DNA from: Halalkalibacter suaedae
GTDB taxonomy: Bacteria; Bacillota; Bacilli; Bacillales; Bacillaceae_D
Direction: 5' to 3'
Length of the DNA stretch: 64,000 nt
Assembly: GCF_017939705.1 (NCBI RefSeq)
Contig: NZ_JAGKSQ010000005.1
Coordinates: 310,001-374,000, forward strand
Position numbers and translations under genes: made by a program. How positions within the stretch are numbered: position 1 is the first letter of the stretch; every line of letters starts with the position of its first letter. Shown piece by piece: positions 6,240 to 58,243 of this stretch. Under the pieces are notes generated by a model. That model ran no database searches. It was not told the origin of the DNA and worked only from the letters and a program-made list of their open reading frames with translations.

Positions 6240-6314
6240 TGGCGCGCCTAGTAGGACTCGAACCTACAACGCAAGAATCGGAATCTTGAATGATATCCCT
6301 TTCACCATAGGCGC
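6240..6314 (-). tRNA. trnR-CCG: tRNA-Arg (anticodon CCG)
   Basis: A cloverleaf with acceptor GCGCCTA/TAGGCGC, anticodon stem CAAGA/TCTTG and loop TTCCGAT (anticodon CCG), T-arm GTAGG-TTCGAGT-CCTAC, discriminator G, and an encoded 3' CCA. It reads the rare CGG arginine codon. It stands alone between two protein genes. Confidence 0.94.
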
Positions 6315-7524: not shown

Positions 7525-8691
7525 TTACTTTAGAGCCATTTCTAACGCTTCAATGTTTTTACGCATTAGTGAAAAATAATCTTCATTATTACTGACATCT
7601 TCCTCAACTAATGCTTCTAGGTTATGAAGATATAATGTCTCGGCACCAACTTCTTCTTGAACAACTTCAGCAAGCTTTGTTGGTATGTTTTGCTCAAGCA
7701 TTACATAGTTAAGATCATATTCTTGTGCATAATTAATAATTTCCTCAAGCTGTTTTTGAGACGGCTCCTCCGTTGGTGACATACCCGAAATACCGATTTG
7801 CTCTAATCCATAACGCTCTTCCCAATAGCCATATCCAGCATGTGATACAAGAAACGTTTTCTTCGAAGAAGCATCTACCATTGCTTGGAAATCAGCATCA
7901 AGTGCTTCAAGATCAGCTTTCAACGAATTAAAATTATCTGTGAACGTTTGTTCCTGTTCTGGCATCAGCTCAACTAGAGCATTTTTTATATTCTCTGCAA
8001 GAGTGATTGCCAAAATCGGGTCGATCCATAAGTGCGGGTCTTCATCATGACTATGAGCATGTGCTTCCTCTTCCTCATGAGCGTGTGCTTCCTCTTCCTC
8101 ATGAGCATGTGCTTCCTCTTCCTCGTGAGCATGTGCTTCCTCTTCCTCATGAGCATGTGCTTCCTCTTCCTCGTGAGCATGCGCTTCCTCTTCCTCATGA
8201 GCATGTGCTTCCTCTTCCTCATGAGCATGTGCTTCCTCTTCCTCATGAGCATGTGCTTCCTCTTCCTCGTGAGCGTGTGCTTCCTCTTCAACTGACTCAC
8301 TATCTAGTAACGAAATTCCTTCAGATGCCTCAACGACTGCTACATCTTCATTTTCAAGTGTAGCAATTACTGCATCAGCAAACCCTTCAAGTCCGGCACC
8401 ATTATAAATAAATGCATCACCTTCAGCTACTTCAATCATTTCTTTCGCTGTTGGTTCAAATGTGTGAGCATCTGAACCAACTGGTACTAGATTTGTCACA
8501 TTAACAAACTCTCCACCAATTTTAGTAGCAAAATCTTCTAAAGGATAAATCGTCGTATATAATTGCAATTGCTCTACATCTGTATTTGCCTCTTCGGCTG
8601 GTGTTGATTCCTCCACTTCAGAACTACCACAGGCAGCCAGAAAAGCAGAAACAACAAGTAGAATAGGTAGTATTCGATATGTAAATTTCAT
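7525..8691 (-). CDS. Zinc-binding lipoprotein (ZnuA/AdcA-type) with ten-unit His/Glu repeat
   Basis: Extracytoplasmic metal receptor of the cluster A-I (TroA/ZnuA) family, lipid-anchored at Cys21 (lipobox LAAC). Likely metal ligands are His76 (GSDAHTFEP), His220 (DPHLWIDP), the histidine of LVSHAGYGYW, and a C-terminal acidic residue. The flexible loop before DPHLW, normally a modest His-rich stretch, is expanded to ten copies of the octapeptide AHAHEEEE (about residues 138-213). This explains the 388-aa length against about 310 for the family. A Zur-like box sits just before the ribosome binding site (AGGGG, 7 nt from ATG). No ATPase or permease gene for zinc uptake is adjacent, so the partners must be elsewhere. 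Confidence 0.9.
   Translation of the reverse strand: MKFTYRILPILLVVSAFLAACGSSEVEESTPAEEANTDVEQLQLYTTIYPLEDFATKIGGEFVNVTNLVPVGSDAHTFEPTAKEMIEVAEGDAFIYNGAGLEGFADAVIATLENEDVAVVEASEGISLLDSESVEEEAHAHEEEEAHAHEEEEAHAHEEEEAHAHEEEEAHAHEEEEAHAHEEEEAHAHEEEEAHAHEEEEAHAHEEEEAHAHSHDEDPHLWIDPILAITLAENIKNALVELMPEQEQTFTDNFNSLKADLEALDADFQAMVDASSKKTFLVSHAGYGYWEERYGLEQIGISGMSPTEEPSQKQLEEIINYAQEYDLNYVMLEQNIPTKLAEVVQEEVGAETLYLHNLEALVEEDVSNNEDYFSLMRKNIEALEMALK
8053..8291 (-). repeat. 24-bp tandem repeat, 10 units, inside the zinc lipoprotein gene
   Basis: Ten consecutive 24-bp units (first bases near 8055, 8079, 8103 and so on to 8271) encode AHAHEEEE. Units differ only at a few third positions (for example gagcat or gagcgt, cctcat or cctcgt), so copies are recent or homogenised. 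The repeat also makes long open frames in other frames and on the opposite strand; these are artefacts. Confidence 0.97.
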
Positions 8692-25355: not shown

Positions 25356-27245
25356 TTAAGCCCTTTTTCTTTTCTTTGGTAGCATTGTTAAAAGCTCTTC
25401 TACTACTTTATTTTCTGTCAAACCAATCTCTTCAAGTAATTCATCAACACTACCATGCTCAATAAATTGATCAGGAATTCCCATTCTTTTTATCTCCATG
25501 TTGTGATAACTATTGTCATGGAAAAACTCAAGAACAGCACTTCCGAAACCACCTTGGAGAGCTGCTTCCTCAAGCGTAATGATTGGCATTGTTGCTAGTG
25601 CTAGCTCCTTTAGGAGAGCTTCATCTAATGGCTTGACAGAATTAGCATTTACTAATTTCACCGATATTCCCTGTGCTTCTAGCTGCTTAATCGCTGCTTC
25701 TGCTACAGGAAGCATCGTTCCAAAGGTTAAAATACAGGCATCCGAACCATCTTGGATCGTTTCCCACTGACCGATTGGTAGCTTCTTCAATTGATCATCC
25801 ATTTTAATTCCGTATCCATTTCCTCGTGGATATCTTACAGCAATTGGACCATCATCATATTGAGTTGCTGTATAGATCATATGCTGAAGTTCATTTTCAT
25901 CTTTCGGCATTAGGATCTTCATATTTGGTAAATGACGTAGAAACGCAATATCAAATACACCTTGGTGCGTTTCACCATCTGCTCCTACAAGCCCTGCTCG
26001 ATCAATAGCAAAGACTACATTTAGATTTTGTCTACAAACGTCATGAACGATCTGGTCATAGCCGCGTTGTAAAAATGTTGAGTAAACAGCAAAGACAGGT
26101 TTCATTCCTTGTGTAGCTAAACCTCCGGCCATTGTGGTAGCATGCTGTTCAGCAATACCAACATCAAACATCCGCTCTGGAAATTCTTTAGCGAAAACGT
26201 CAAGTTTTGTTCCACCAGGCATTGCTGCTGTTAATGCAACAATCCGTTTGTCTTCACGAGCTATTTTCTTGAGCGTTTCAGCAAAGACACCACTATAACT
26301 AGGTGGTCCAGGCTTTTTAACGACTTCACCCGACTCAATTTTGTAAGGTCCTAGTCCATGCCAAGTTCCTTTCGCATCATTTTCAGCAGGCTCGTACCCT
26401 TTGCCTTTTTTCGTTAAGACGTGAATCAGCACAGGACCTTTCGTTTTCTTTGCATACTTTAAATTTTCAGCCAAGTCGTCCAGATCATGACCATCAACCG
26501 GTCCTAAATACGTAAATCCTAGCTCTTCAAAGAAAATCCCAGAAACAAGTAAATATTTCAAACTGTCTTTGACACGCTCTGCTGTTGAAGCAATCTTCCC
26601 ACCAAAGGCAGGTATTTTCTTAAGTAATTGTTCAAGCTCTTCCTTCGCTTTCTTATACTTACCAGCTGTACGTAAACGACCGAGCACATTGTGAAGGGCA
26701 CCGACATTTGGTGCGATTGACATTTCATTATCGTTTAAGATAACAATTAGATTTGTTTGTTCATGTCCAATATGGTTCAAAGCTTCTAATGCCATACCGC
26801 CTGTTAGTGCACCGTCTCCAATTACTGCAATAACGGATTCATCTGTTCCCTTTAAATCACGTGCAGTAGCCATTCCCATTGCTGCAGATAATGAGGTTGA
26901 GCTATGACCGGTTTCCCAAACATCATGCTCGCTTTCATTACGCTTCGGAAACCCGCATAATCCCTTATACTGACGGAGCTGATCAAATTGATCTGCACGT
27001 CCTGTAAGAATCTTATGAACATATGCTTGATGACCAACGTCCCAAATAAATTTATCTTTTGGACTATCAAACAGCTGATGTAATGTAAGCGTTAACTCAA
27101 CAACACCTAAATTGGGTCCTAGATGTCCACCAGTAATCGATAATTTTTCAATAAGGAAATGGCGAATGTCTTTAGCCAAGTCTTCTAATTGTTCTTTTGT
27201 GTAGTTCTGTAGTTCGCTTGGGTCTTTAAATCCCTCTAGGTTCAT
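25356..27245 (-). CDS. dxs: 1-deoxy-D-xylulose-5-phosphate synthase
   Basis: First enzyme of the MEP isoprenoid pathway: condenses pyruvate and glyceraldehyde-3-phosphate with thiamine diphosphate. 629 aa, transketolase-like. Visible are [13 protein letters not shown], the ThDP motif [15 protein letters not shown] through [25 protein letters not shown] and the C-terminal domain. It lies 10 nt after oapA. Together with ispA upstream it frames the OLE RNA with isoprenoid genes, the known genomic setting of OLE. Confidence 0.97.
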
Positions 27246-27255
27246 AAAGGAACCC

Positions 27256-27861
27256 TCACTTTCGAGTCAGTTTATCTTTTTTCTTTTTTCCATTTGGTGA
27301 AAAGATCTTGATTTTAAATTTTGCTTCTAATAAATGTAGTAATCTGCCCACTTGAAATATGATTTGGGTGGAGTAGTGAATCGCTAACGTTTTTCCAAGT
27401 GCTTTACCGCCTACAGTTAGAGCGGCAACGACACTTGTAAAAAGAATCGATATAGCAAACTGCTGGTAGGAAGTATCACTATAGCCTAACTGAAGTGATA
27501 ATTGTAACACAACGTATGCAGATGCTGTCCCACTAATAATTCCAGAAATATCTCCAATTACATCATTACAAAAATTAGCAAATTTATCAGCGTTTCTCGT
27601 AATTAAAACGGCGTGTCTGGCTCCACCTAAGCGTTCAGAAGCCATCGCGTGAAATGGTTTCTCATCTGCGGCAGTTGCCGCCACCCCTATTGTATCAAAG
27701 AATACCCCTAAAAACACAATAATAAAGACAATCACCATACCGATTGCCCACGTTACGCCACTTAGTATGAACGTCGAGATAACTGAAAAAATAGCCGCTA
27801 GCACTAATGTGATAACGGCAATTCCGATACTCCAGCGTACGGACTTCTGTAGAGTTTTCAT
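27256..27861 (-). CDS. oapA: OLE RNA-associated membrane protein OapA
   Basis: Membrane protein known to bind OLE RNA and hold it at the cell membrane. 201 aa with about four predicted helices (about residues 11-32, 38-60, 106-128, 135-157), a cytoplasmic loop with [34 protein letters not shown] written here only as landmark residues D56, E67 and R77, and a basic C-terminal tail ([10 protein letters not shown]). The gene directly follows OLE RNA and precedes dxs, the diagnostic arrangement. The AGGTGA site is about 12-13 nt from the ATG, longer than usual, so translation may be weak. Confidence 0.93.
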
Positions 27862-27890
27862 TATATATATTAATCACCTTTATAATTATA

Positions 27891-28500
27891 TTATGTAGAG
27901 GAGTGGTCATTTAAAGAGTAAACTCTGTAGCTTAGGTCCAGTAGGATTTCCCATACCAGCTCCAATGCGTCGCCGCACTGGCGGTTTCCCTTTATACCGA
28001 TATTGACGCTGTCACCAAACGCCAGACTGGATTACCACTTAGTCTACACTGAAATCCCCTTTAAATGTCTATCGAACAGTCTAGGAGTTTTCCTCGGCAA
28101 CCCCTTGCCAATCTTTTATCCTCTTTTGCAGAGCAGATTTCATATAGGTTAAGGCACCATCTGTTGGCCGACAGATTAAATACCTCGTTTTCCATAATCC
28201 CCTCTAACTCCACTCAAGGCAGGCTACGCTGCAGACAAGCTCCCTAGCTTGCCTTACAGGTTCATACCTTTTGCTCTAGTGACCGATACCAACGTATGGA
28301 CTAAGCAAAAGGCCTCCACGGTAGGAGGGTCCTCGCCCACATGCCTTTGTGGATCGCCCTACTACCTCTCCCCCAGCTTAGACCCAAGGCTGGGCGCCTC
28401 AAGCCAAAACAAGGGGCTTCATCGATGTGCCCTTTGGCGGATTTTTAGCCCCGCCTTCAAGATTGGAGGACTGACTAGAATACTGCACCACTCTCATATA
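27891..28500 (-). ncRNA. ole: OLE RNA (ornate large extremophilic RNA)
   Basis: A roughly 610-nt non-coding, structure-rich, relatively GC-rich region between ispA and oapA. Evidence: length and position are exactly those of OLE in B. halodurans relatives; oapA follows; no reading frame with a ribosome binding site exists on the minus strand; and the two ends are complementary (5' GAGAGTGGT near 28495-28487, 3' ACCACTCCTC near 27907-27898), closing the molecule. Many internal hairpins are visible, such as GGCGGGGC/GCCCC and paired GCAAAAGG and CCTTTTGC segments. OLE with OapA is a membrane ribonucleoprotein tied to tolerance of short-chain alcohols, cold and magnesium. Exact ends are estimates. 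Confidence 0.92.
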
Positions 28501-28505
28501 ATTCT

Positions 28506-28534
28506 ATTATAACATGCATGGATTCCAAGCTCAA
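28506..28534 (-). promoter_or_regulatory. SigA promoter of OLE RNA
   Basis: Minus strand -35 TTGAGC (28534-28529), a 17-bp spacer and -10 TATAAT (28511-28506). Predicted start near 28500-28498 coincides with the 5' end of the terminal pairing. It lies in the 50-bp gap after the ispA stop, so OLE can be made independently of the upstream operon. Confidence 0.75.
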
Positions 28535-28552
28535 TGGAAATGCATCCCTACA

Positions 28553-29440
28553 TTAATGATCACGATTTGCTACATAGTCGGTTAAAGCCAACAGTAAATC
28601 ATGATTCATCTCTACATGATATAGATATTCCTTCGCTTTTGTGATATGCTCAGTTAATTTTCTTTTAGCCCCATCAAGCCCAAGCAGGTTAGGATAGGTG
28701 CTCTTGTTATTATCGGTATCACTCCCGACGGGCTTTCCAATCGTTTCGGCGTCACCTTCAACATCTAGAATATCATCTTTAATTTGAAATAAAAGACCAA
28801 GCTCTTTAGAGAATTTTCTTAAATAGATTACATCCTTTTCACTAGCACCAGCCAAGATCGCTCCTGAAATGATTGAACATGTTAAAAGATCACCCGTTTT
28901 ATGGTCATGAACATACATAAGCTCGTCTAAAGTAAGTGTTCTTTTTTCACCTGCAATATCAGCTACTTGCCCACCAACCATGCCTTCTGGACCCGCTGCC
29001 TTTGCAATTTCGCTAATCAGCTGTAGCTTCTGCTCTGCTGTCAAAGTTGGTTCGCTAAGCTTGGAAATTATTTCAAAGCTATAAGTCAATAGAGCATCCC
29101 CTGCCAATATAGCGATCGCTTCACCATACACTTTATGATTAGTTGGTTTTCCCCGTCTAAGATCATCATCATCCATCGATGGCAGATCATCATGAATTAA
29201 TGAATATGTATGAATCATTTCAATTGCACAGGCGACATCTAGCCCTATTTCAACAGGTTTTCCGAAACTATGTAATGTTGCATTTAATAAAGCTGGTCGA
29301 ATGCGTTTTCCTCCAGCATTTAAGGAATACAACATGGATTGTTTTAATTCGATTGGAGCATTTAGTCGATTAATATGCTCTGGTAATTTTCGTTCAACCG
29401 CTTCTCTTTGCTCTCTCATAAAAGACATCAAATCTGTCAC
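28553..29440 (-). CDS. ispA: Polyprenyl (farnesyl) diphosphate synthase
   Basis: Condenses isopentenyl diphosphate with allylic diphosphates to make farnesyl diphosphate, the precursor of undecaprenyl phosphate and quinone tails. 295 aa. First aspartate-rich motif DDLPSMDDDD, second DDILD, GGKRIRPAL near the N-terminus and GxxV-type GGQVAD. Starts at GTG 29440, with CAGGAGG 10 nt upstream and only 2 nt after the xseB stop; an ATG four codons in is the alternative. It is followed by OLE RNA. Confidence 0.96.
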   Translation of the reverse strand: MTDLMSFMREQREAVERKLPEHINRLNAPIELKQSMLYSLNAGGKRIRPALLNATLHSFGKPVEIGLDVACAIEMIHTYSLIHDDLPSMDDDDLRRGKPTNHKVYGEAIAILAGDALLTYSFEIISKLSEPTLTAEQKLQLISEIAKAAGPEGMVGGQVADIAGEKRTLTLDELMYVHDHKTGDLLTCSIISGAILAGASEKDVIYLRKFSKELGLLFQIKDDILDVEGDAETIGKPVGSDTDNNKSTYPNLLGLDGAKRKLTEHITKAKEYLYHVEMNHDLLLALTDYVANRDH

Positions 29441-29442
29441 AG

Positions 29443-29676
29443 TTACTCTTCCTCCTGAAACGTGAGTACTTCAATCTCACCATCTTCATGAAGAATCTGA
29501 TCCATTTGTTTTTCGACCTTTTCTAATTTTTCATGACAAAGCTTTGACAGGGCCATCCCTTCTTGGAACATACCAATAGCTTCTTCTAAAGGAACATCGC
29601 CTTGTTCGAGCTTTTCAACAACTTCCTCTAATTCGGTCATCGCTTCTTCAAATGTTTTGTCTTTTTGATCAGTCAT
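29443..29676 (-). CDS. xseB: Exodeoxyribonuclease VII small subunit
   Basis: 77-aa acidic helical protein that binds XseA; family signature [26 protein letters not shown] at the N-terminus (seen as FEEAM...[10 protein letters not shown]). Overlaps the end of xseA by 8 nt, the usual coupling. Together they degrade single-stranded DNA to large acid-insoluble oligonucleotides. Confidence 0.96.
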
Positions 29677-31036
29677 GTTTCACTTCCTCCTCTTTCACAG
29701 GGCTTTTCTTCACCACTCGACAAAGAATCATCCCATCTCGCAGACGGAGGTCAAGCTCTGATCCTTCCTGAACTTGCTTTGTCGATTTGATCAACGTTTT
29801 ATTTTTATCATAAGCAAGATTATAGCCGCGGTCCATTAATCTTAATGGACTAAGGAGATGTAACTCACTAATATGCTTCTCAAATGGTTGACGTTTTGCT
29901 TTGATTTGCTCCTGCATTGCTTTTGTTAATCGTTGCTTTAGTTGCATTCGTTTATCTTTTGCAGTGATCATTTGATTGTTTGGATGCATTCGTTTCAATC
30001 GTTGATCTAATAAATTTAGCTGTTCAACTGGCTTTTTTCGAGTCATCTCGATGGCTCTTTTTAGTCGATCTAAATAGTTGTCTAATTGTTGCTCCTTTTG
30101 TTTCACTAATTGCTCAGGATAGCGAAAAGCATACGATCGGTTCATCCGTTCAAGCTTGGACTTTTCACGTGAAATTTGTTCCTTTACTCGATGGGCTAAG
30201 CGTTTATTCAAACTTATTAATGTACGTTTGATTTCTTGATAATCAGGAACAGCTAGCTCTGCCGCTCCCGTTGGTGTAGGTGCTCGTAGATCAGCAACAA
30301 AATCACTAATCGTATAGTCTGTTTCGTGACCAACTGCAGAAATAATCGGAACGGTTGCCCCTGCAATCGTTCTGACAACATCCTCGTCATTAAATGCCCA
30401 TAATTCTTCAATCGAGCCACCACCACGACCAACAATTAAGACGTCGAAGCAATTCGCTGCATCTACTTGGCGAATTGCTCTAACTATTGATCCAGGTGCT
30501 TGTCCACCCTGTACGAGTACAGGAAGTAATGTAATTTGTGCAATAGGATAGCGTCTTTTCAAAGTTGAGACAATATCTTGAATTGCTGCACCTGTGGGCG
30601 ATGTAATAACAGCAATACGATTCGGAAAAGTAGGAATAGCTTTTTTGCGAGTCTCTGAAAATAGTCCCTCAGCCTCCAGCGTAGCCTTGAGTTTTTCGTA
30701 AGCTAAATACAAGCTACCTATCCCATCAGGCTGCATTTCCTTCGCATAGAGTTGATATTGTCCATAAGGCTCATACACATTGATTTCACCACGAATTAAC
30801 ACCTTCATGCCATTTTCAGGCTTGAATGCTAAGAATCGATTATTCCCCGCAAACATAACAGCTTGAATTCGTGATTGCTGATCCTTTACTGTAAAGTACA
30901 AATGACCACGACTATGTAGCTTCACATTCGATAACTCGCCACGGATCCATACATCAGTCAAAATTGCATCTTCTTCTAACAAAGATTTAATATAGCGAGT
31001 GACCTCCGATATCGTTAAAATCGATTGTTCGGACAT
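29669..31036 (-). CDS. xseA: Exodeoxyribonuclease VII large subunit
   Basis: Catalytic subunit for bidirectional single-strand exonuclease activity. 455 aa: N-terminal OB-fold (residues about 10-105), the central catalytic domain with [28 protein letters not shown] and [29 protein letters not shown] landmarks, then a long Lys/Gln-rich coiled coil. Lies 8 nt after folD and overlaps xseB. Confidence 0.96.
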
Positions 31037-57849: not shown

Positions 57850-58030
57850 TAACCAGAAAGTTTCCTGTTGTTTAAACAAACGCCAGTGTCTTCGTGGGTG
57901 GCTCAAGTGAGCACTCTCCAGAGTCGCGTCAAATAAGAGTCTTCTTTACCTGAGAGATTCACAACTGATTTACAGAAATCGTTGCTTGCTCCTTCGGCGC
58001 TGCAGCAACTGCCACAGTCTCTCCCCTTAT
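57850..58030 (-). promoter_or_regulatory. Tandem glycine riboswitch of the gcv operon
   Basis: Two consecutive gcvT-type aptamers on the minus strand. Aptamer I (about 58030-57930) contains GGGGAGAGACTG, GCGCCGAAGGAGCAA and TCTCTCAGGTAAA; aptamer II (about 57925-57850) contains CTCTGGAGAGTG, GCCACCCACGAAGACA and CTTTCTGGTTAAAGGACAG. A terminator hairpin follows, which makes this an ON switch that lets gcvT-gcvPA-gcvPB be read when glycine is high. Confidence 0.93.
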
Positions 58031-58243
58031 CCTCATCCGCATCTTATGTAGTTGACTACTCATAATTTTGACTATTTTTGTCCATACTACTAATACATGA
58101 TTACTTCATTCGGTTTTCTATTAATATCCTAACAAGATAGGACACTTCTTGCAACTATTTTATTTAAAAACTTAAAGTTTCATACATTTTTGTCTTTTTC
58201 ATTCGGATATGGGTGTTCTTGAATAGGAGAAAGGGTGATATAA
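58031..58243. other. Divergent promoter region between gcv and yqhH
   Basis: About 210 bp of AT-rich DNA that must hold the promoters for the riboswitch leader (minus) and for yqhH (plus). I could not fix convincing -35/-10 pairs by eye. Confidence 0.4.

Follow-up and report, generated by a model that had tools for sequence, protein, structure and literature searches.

OLE is a large structured RNA that acts together with a membrane protein in many Gram-positive bacteria, and of the conserved bacterial RNAs that lack an assigned biochemical function it is one of the largest. In Halalkalibacterium halodurans, OLE is an abundant RNA of ~630 nt with trans partners (passages of PMC9723947), and for the OLEs of other species an abundant, discrete RNA of about 600 to 640 nt has been published that is membrane-located and dimeric. 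Published work on the H. halodurans and clostridial OLEs covers membrane location, dimer formation, and protein sites, as well as roles in stress caused by Mg2+, cold, alcohol, or the carbon source. The copy described here, from a 64,000-nt stretch of DNA of Halalkalibacter suaedae that was analyzed as a whole (the window), is a new copy of this known RNA; the class, its partners, and the idea of a transmembrane RNA are already in print. Comparison with its relatives yields pairings that are missing from the Rfam model (P1 and P3/P3.1), a length constraint on P3, and a natural loss case, and the membrane-spanning and OLE-for-transporter ideas become cheap to test.

A complete OLE RNA between ispA and oapA

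A covariance-model scan of the window gave an RF01071 match at 28507-27887 on the minus strand that covers the model from end to end (positions 1-616 of 616; 515 bits, E = 3.8e-148), versus an Rfam gathering score of 50 for this family, and it is the sole such match in the host genome (30 contigs, 98.7% complete). The preliminary description, made from the letters, had placed an OLE RNA at 27891-28500 and had named a minus-strand hit of this model as its check. That check was passed by a wide margin over the whole model, and we regard it as practically certain that 27887-28507 encodes a complete, apparently intact, and typical OLE RNA. Identity to the 90 other aligned OLEs ranges from 87% (nearest) to 62% (farthest).

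Read along the minus strand, the gene order is xseA, xseB, ispA, OLE, oapA, dxs, a TlyA-like methyltransferase gene, argR, and recN, where xseB, ispA, dxs, and the methyltransferase gene were named by Pfam and xseA, argR, and recN from sequence. The polyprenyl synthetase gene ispA (28553-29440, minus strand; PF00348, E = 1e-59) lies upstream, and oapA (27256-27861, minus strand; 201 aa) and then dxs (25356-27245, minus strand; PF13292, E = 4e-122) lie downstream. The location between ispA and oapA, and the size, neighbors, and order that had been taken as those of OLE, all hold. The region had also been said to contain no plausible protein, in agreement with an open reading frame (ORF) list that has no minus-strand ORF of at least 60 aa wholly within OLE; a 71-aa minus-strand ORF begins in the last 24 nt of the RNA and enters oapA in another frame, and on the plus strand, ORFs of 60 and 87 aa run antisense to OLE.

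A sequence scan recovered the promoter that had been proposed at the 5' end, at 28534-28506 on the minus strand (TTGAGC-17-TATAAT, with TG before the -10). Since the interval 26000-30500 contains fewer promoter-like sites than its shuffles (6 versus a mean of 10.5), such a site taken alone proves little. The proposal is borne out by recurrence, with a promoter-type site standing before OLE in 74 of the 91 aligned OLEs, versus a mean of 4.2 and a maximum of 10 in 100 dinucleotide-shuffle sets, where a site needed at least 9 of 12 letters and a -10 ending 9 to 19 nt ahead of P1, a range chosen after the distances had been seen. Anywhere in 70 nt, a promoter-like site is found in 78 of the 91.

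Elsewhere in the window, we observe a single-aptamer glycine riboswitch match (57927-58036, minus strand; 57.6 bits), a gene for a zinc-type ABC substrate-binding protein (7525-8691, minus strand; named by eye) that carries an extended tandem array of HAHEEEEA-like histidine/glutamate units, and two isolated minus-strand tRNA genes, Val (gac) and Arg (ccg), at 2792-2866 and 6240-6314.

Secondary structure and covariation

We collected 110 distinct OLE sequences and aligned 91 of these. Across the 91, the 156 Rfam pairs present in the H. suaedae copy have 87.1% of cells paired, versus 39.6 to 45.8% when partners are slid by 1 to 3 columns, and 115 of the 156 pairs show changes on both sides. 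P7, P8, and the tip of P9, which lie in a poorly aligned part, are the weakest (53 to 60% paired). Conserved secondary structure backed by covariation, one of the features by which OLE is recognized, is thus found in this RNA.

The ends of the RNA are joined by P1, a helix of 7 bp whose strands are unpaired in RF01071, in which the 5' strand GAGTGGT (OLE 15-21; 28487-28493, minus strand) pairs with the 3' strand ACCACTC (OLE 601-607; 27901-27907, minus strand). P1 has 98.4% of its cells paired in the 91 OLEs and six of seven pairs double-changed, with relatives also carrying GGATGGT/ACCATCC, GGGTGGT/ACCACCC, and GAATGGT/ACCATTC, and 96.9% of cells are paired in 50 OLEs of 50 other families. 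The matching 5' and 3' ends of the preliminary description therefore stand as a 7-bp covarying helix, but the further letters quoted there give no direct extension of it (by eye, the next A faces C). In P2, the 5' strand CAGT-ATT-CTAG (OLE 23-33; 28475-28485, minus strand) pairs with the 3' strand CTAGACTG (OLE 424-431; 28077-28084, minus strand), with 99.9% of cells paired in the 91 sequences and 100% in the 50. There are two double-changed cells in all, and P2 is almost invariant, so that covariation says little about this helix.

A mutual-information scan of the 91-sequence alignment picked OLE 37-408, 39-406, and 45-396 with their neighbors, which fall in two covarying minus-strand helices, P3 (OLE 35-40 with 405-410; 28468-28473 with 28098-28103) and P3.1 (OLE 42-48 with 393-400; 28460-28466 with 28108-28115). 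Taken together, P3 and P3.1 have 92.5% of cells paired, versus 57.4% and 56.0% after a shift by one, and 188 double-changed cells versus 68.8 in shuffles. Changes on both sides are seen in 11 of 13 pairs, a figure reached by 95 of 500 shuffles, so that the support for P3/P3.1 rests on the other measures. The pairs were chosen on the same 91-sequence alignment, with the 50 distant OLEs as an independent check; in these, 86.7% of P3 cells and 93.2% of P3.1 cells are paired, with 200 double-changed cells. The stem OLE 35-48/393-410 evidently corresponds to the published P3/P3.1, for which passages of PMC12265935 that also list P1 and P2 give a length that "typically sums to 12 bp"; the names given here follow position and size. 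P1, P2, and P3/P3.1 are thus in print though absent from RF01071. The hairpin with the A-rich loop CTAAAAAT (OLE 53-72; 28436-28455, minus strand), presumably P4, has 99.8% of cells paired.

Among the top 80 mutual-information pairs, 52 are already known pairs. Isolated candidates for tertiary contacts, such as OLE 452-536 (GC in 83, AT in 7, GT in 1), were rejected, as by eye they seem to reflect one clade (Halobacillus, Thalassobacillus). The expectation that a new sequence would add covariation data was justified, with P1 and P3/P3.1, outside the Rfam model, covarying in relatives and this copy having a paired exchange at OLE 93-137.

Partner proteins

Another feature by which OLE is recognized is an oapA gene directly downstream that carries the DxxxD motif, and this arrangement is present here. 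The motif is said to be particular to OapA (passages of PMC11332333), and its residues D100 and D104, both changed in the published OapA mutant PM1 (passages of PMC9723947), are invariant in 20 aligned proteins. Host OapA is 62 to 91% identical to the 19 others in this alignment, and its top named matches are from Halalkalibacter species (up to 90%), with H. okhensis in first place.

With respect to protein family, OapA scores 19.7 bits against Pfam CNNM (PF01595) over residues 44-179 (20.7 bits in the genome search); the cut-off is 28.4 bits, and we therefore call OapA CNNM-like and not a family member. An AlphaFold model from the 20 sequences is poor (pLDDT 60.6, pTM 0.38), and the six best Foldseek matches of this poor model are CNNM proteins, the best at E = 0.021 and none at 0.001. 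A sequence profile search of the PDB with OapA gave one match, which is not credible (E = 0.86). Together, the sequence score and the model are suggestive of a weak resemblance of OapA to CNNM metal transporters.

The other partner genes, oapB, oapC, and bS21, are all in the host genome, a complement that is not universal in the OLE class. Host OapB matches PDB 7k9b ("OLE-associated protein B"; E = 4.9e-43) and is encoded between map and infA (neighbors named from sequence), OapC, which is YbxF, matches PDB 3v7e and 4lck (E of about 2e-20), and bS21 matches PF01165 (E = 3e-20).

Further oapA-like genes were seen in other genomes. Genome G115 encodes a second OapA-like protein (L139:2285-2914; 209 aa) that scores 189.9 bits against the OapA profile but has no Pfam match and no OLE in the 5-kb stretch at E = 0.1, the one OLE of the genome lying elsewhere; it may be a paralogue working without its own RNA. 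The second oapA-like gene of G072 (C1:468042-468579; L140), with no OLE near, is split over two frames and is probably a pseudogene.

Co-inheritance and loss of OLE

The preliminary description had called OLE rare, which our counts contradict: of 398 genomes from 267 genera drawn across the phylum, 284 genomes, in 182 genera, have an OLE match, as do 93 of 149 relatives, 92 of these full length and one broken. OLE is co-inherited with oapA and oapB. Among the relatives, oapA occurs in 94, namely, the same 93 as OLE plus G078, where a 34-residue stub remains and no OLE was found near it, and at all 80 oapA loci examined (kept from 348 found) an OLE match lies at most 250 nt upstream of oapA. 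All 92 genomes with intact OLE have oapB, versus 11 of the 57 without, where two of the 11 copies are partial and contain stops; within the host's own family oapB is present in 20/20 genomes with OLE and 0/21 without. Among OLE carriers generally, published figures put OapB at about 60% and OapC at 45% (passages of PMC11332333), and the tight link to oapB is therefore a feature of the host's order. OapC is present in 145 of the 149 relatives, so that its presence says nothing about OLE.

A natural case of loss is found within the genus of the model organism. Genome G020, of the same genus as H. halodurans (G014), retains broken stubs of both OLE and oapA, flanked by intact ispA and dxs genes (L112:5155-5612) and consisting of about 235 nt of the OLE 5' end, the first 65 oapA codons and, by eye, the apparent last oapA codons. 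The OLE remnant is changed at 9 of 86 columns that are invariant in the 91 and keeps 34 of 40 pairs of helices 1 to 4, the lowest of all (36 to 40 in the others, 40/40 in G014), and the genome has no oapB while oapC is kept. One sentence in the passages of PMC11332333 mentions defective OLE genes in rare species without OapA; an account of the G020 case was not found in the literature passages searched.

We also observed a full-length OLE (399.8 bits), with a CNNM-domain gene and dxs downstream of it, at L144:7983-8647 of NZ_AP023421.1, a 504-kb record labeled as a conjugative plasmid of Pusillibacter faecalis that is perhaps a second chromosome or a mislabeled piece. Mobility of OLE was considered and rejected, as there is no phage match and this is the one plasmid-labeled record.

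CNNM transporters and OLE

The host genome contains four CNNM-CBS-CorC (MpfA-type) genes (L130 to L133), two of them adjoining and divergent, and four such genes beside OLE are not predicted by a simple OLE-for-MpfA trade. G020, with its OLE stub, has four CNNM genes, and in the OLE-bearing G014 no CNNM match reaches E = 1e-20. CNNM genes number 2.11 on average in the 92 intact-OLE genomes and 3.18 in the 57 without (Mann-Whitney, P = 1.6e-7, ignoring kinship), and genus means are 1.90 with OLE versus 3.13 without, again by statistics that ignore kinship. When genera holding both OLE states are considered, one of four fits (0 versus 4; the others being 4 and 4 versus 4, 2 versus 2, and 6 and 3 versus 4), and among families holding both states three of seven fit a lower CNNM count with OLE. 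Replacement of OLE by MpfA as a rule was rejected on these counts.

Alternative explanations

The region could be read as a structured untranslated spacer or leader acting in cis on oapA or dxs, and not as a separate particle, since it stands directly before oapA, with ~25 nt from the RNA 3' end to the start codon, and the sequence scan of the locus found no strong terminator between the two. A separate particle is nevertheless favored by the full-length match to a family with an abundant ~630-nt RNA and trans partners in H. halodurans, by ends that are closed by the covarying helix P1, by an own promoter that recurs in relatives, and by co-loss with oapB, which is located elsewhere in the genome; the cis-acting reading is, in our view, extremely improbable. 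We also hold it very unlikely that this copy is decaying in a host that, with its four MpfA-type transporters, no longer needs OLE. The four CNNM-CBS-CorC genes would be in line with decay, as would two changes in J5/6 (28368-28371, minus strand), which adjoins the P5 pair OLE 93-137 (alignment of 91; the changes of this copy in J5/6 and in that pair lie at 28367-28371 and 28415). J5/6 is 1 nt shorter than in 87 of the 91 OLEs, a shortening common to three others, and A140, invariant in the 90 others including the aligned Halalkalibacter ones, is changed to G, which may be a sequencing error. Passages of PMC12054373 describe two alternative k-turns, 1a, to which J5/6 contributes one strand, and 1b, which involves J6/7. 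By eye, the letters of both strands are present at the P5 base, with J5/6 changed at OLE 140. The change of A140 to G presumably makes the J5/6 strand more like a canonical k-turn. Decay is opposed by the overall state of the locus: this copy departs at 2 of 231 columns that are conserved to at least 97% in the 90 others, and one of these departures is matched by its partner (U93 to C with A137 to G, a UA-to-CG exchange shared with one other sequence); of the 40 pairs of helices 1 to 4, 39 stand, versus 34 in the true remnant of G020 with its 9 of 86 changed columns; oapA is open over 201 codons with D100 and D104; and oapB is present. We thus retain the reading of an intact RNA.

Of what the comparison adds to the known OLE picture, the measured constraint on the length of P3 is the most useful, and here the alternatives carry more weight. 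P3 has been proposed to span the lipid bilayer, and by cryo-EM it projects away from domain 1 (passages of PMC12265935). If P3 spans the bilayer, a constraint on its length is expected even at positions where the sequence can vary. The P3 5' strand, which lies between P2 and P4, has 19 nt in all 91 aligned OLEs, and among the 50 distant ones 33 have 20 nt and 17 have 19 nt, whereas stems of similar variability (column homozygosity of 0.52 for P3, 0.53 for P9, 0.45 for P8, and 0.35 for P7) range over 22 to 55 nt (P7), 25 to 50 nt (P8), and 42 to 119 nt (P9). A 5' strand of 19 to 20 nt in 141/141 phylum-wide OLEs, versus widely varying P7 to P9, is what would be predicted if P3/P3.1 were a ruler set by membrane thickness, with a helix through the bilayer putting the 3' domain on the other side. 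The near-constant length, as read from the alignments, fits the published membrane-spanning proposal, without proving it. We lean toward a different cause, in which helix phasing or packing, in the RNA dimer or against OapA, holds the length. Other elements of the packed domains are near-fixed too (P4, 20 nt in 141/141; P5, 46 to 47 nt; P6, 46 to 50 nt; P12 to P15, 150 to 160 nt), and the P3 3' strand is looser, at 14 to 20 nt. Two points speak against packing, namely, that those near-fixed elements are conserved in letters (homozygosity of 0.70 to 0.91) and P3 is not (0.52), and that P3 points away from domain 1 in the cryo-EM work (passages of PMC12265935). On balance, we find it doubtful that P3 truly crosses the bilayer and consider the ruler model unlikely.

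Proposed working of the RNA and comparison with known OLE systems

By analogy, we infer that the published H. halodurans and clostridial picture holds in this host too. The RNA would be made from its own promoter, on the minus strand within the isoprenoid operon, and probably also in a longer transcript from which it would then be processed. P1 closes the ends of the RNA, and P2 and P3/P3.1 join the 5' domain (P4 to P9) to the 3' domain (P10 to P15). OapA, the product of the next gene, would hold OLE at the membrane, OapB would bind the 3' domain, and OapC and bS21 would bind the P5/P6 k-turn region. Taken as a whole, the explanation of the locus as a complete OLE RNA with its own promoter, forming an OapA-held membrane ribonucleoprotein with OapB, OapC, and bS21, appears very likely, and going by the described species it is likely that this membrane ribonucleoprotein is used in stress and metal-ion balance.

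Compared with MpfA/CorC-type CNNM transporters (PF01595), OapA shows a weak sequence match in residues 44-179 and gives CNNM proteins as the best folds of a poor model; it differs in scoring below the Pfam cut-off, in its 201-aa size without CBS or CorC domains, and in having DxxxD. The other Halalkalibacter OLEs share the gene order and are at most 87% identical to this copy, and none of those aligned carries its change at OLE 140. The closest described system is that of H. halodurans (RF01071), whose OLE is 84% identical over aligned letters, with the same neighbors, helices, and OapA residues D100 and D104. This copy differs from it in the UA-to-CG exchange at OLE 93-137, the A-to-G change at OLE 140, and the shorter J5/6, and whereas the H. 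halodurans genome is without a CNNM match at E = 1e-20, the H. suaedae genome has four.
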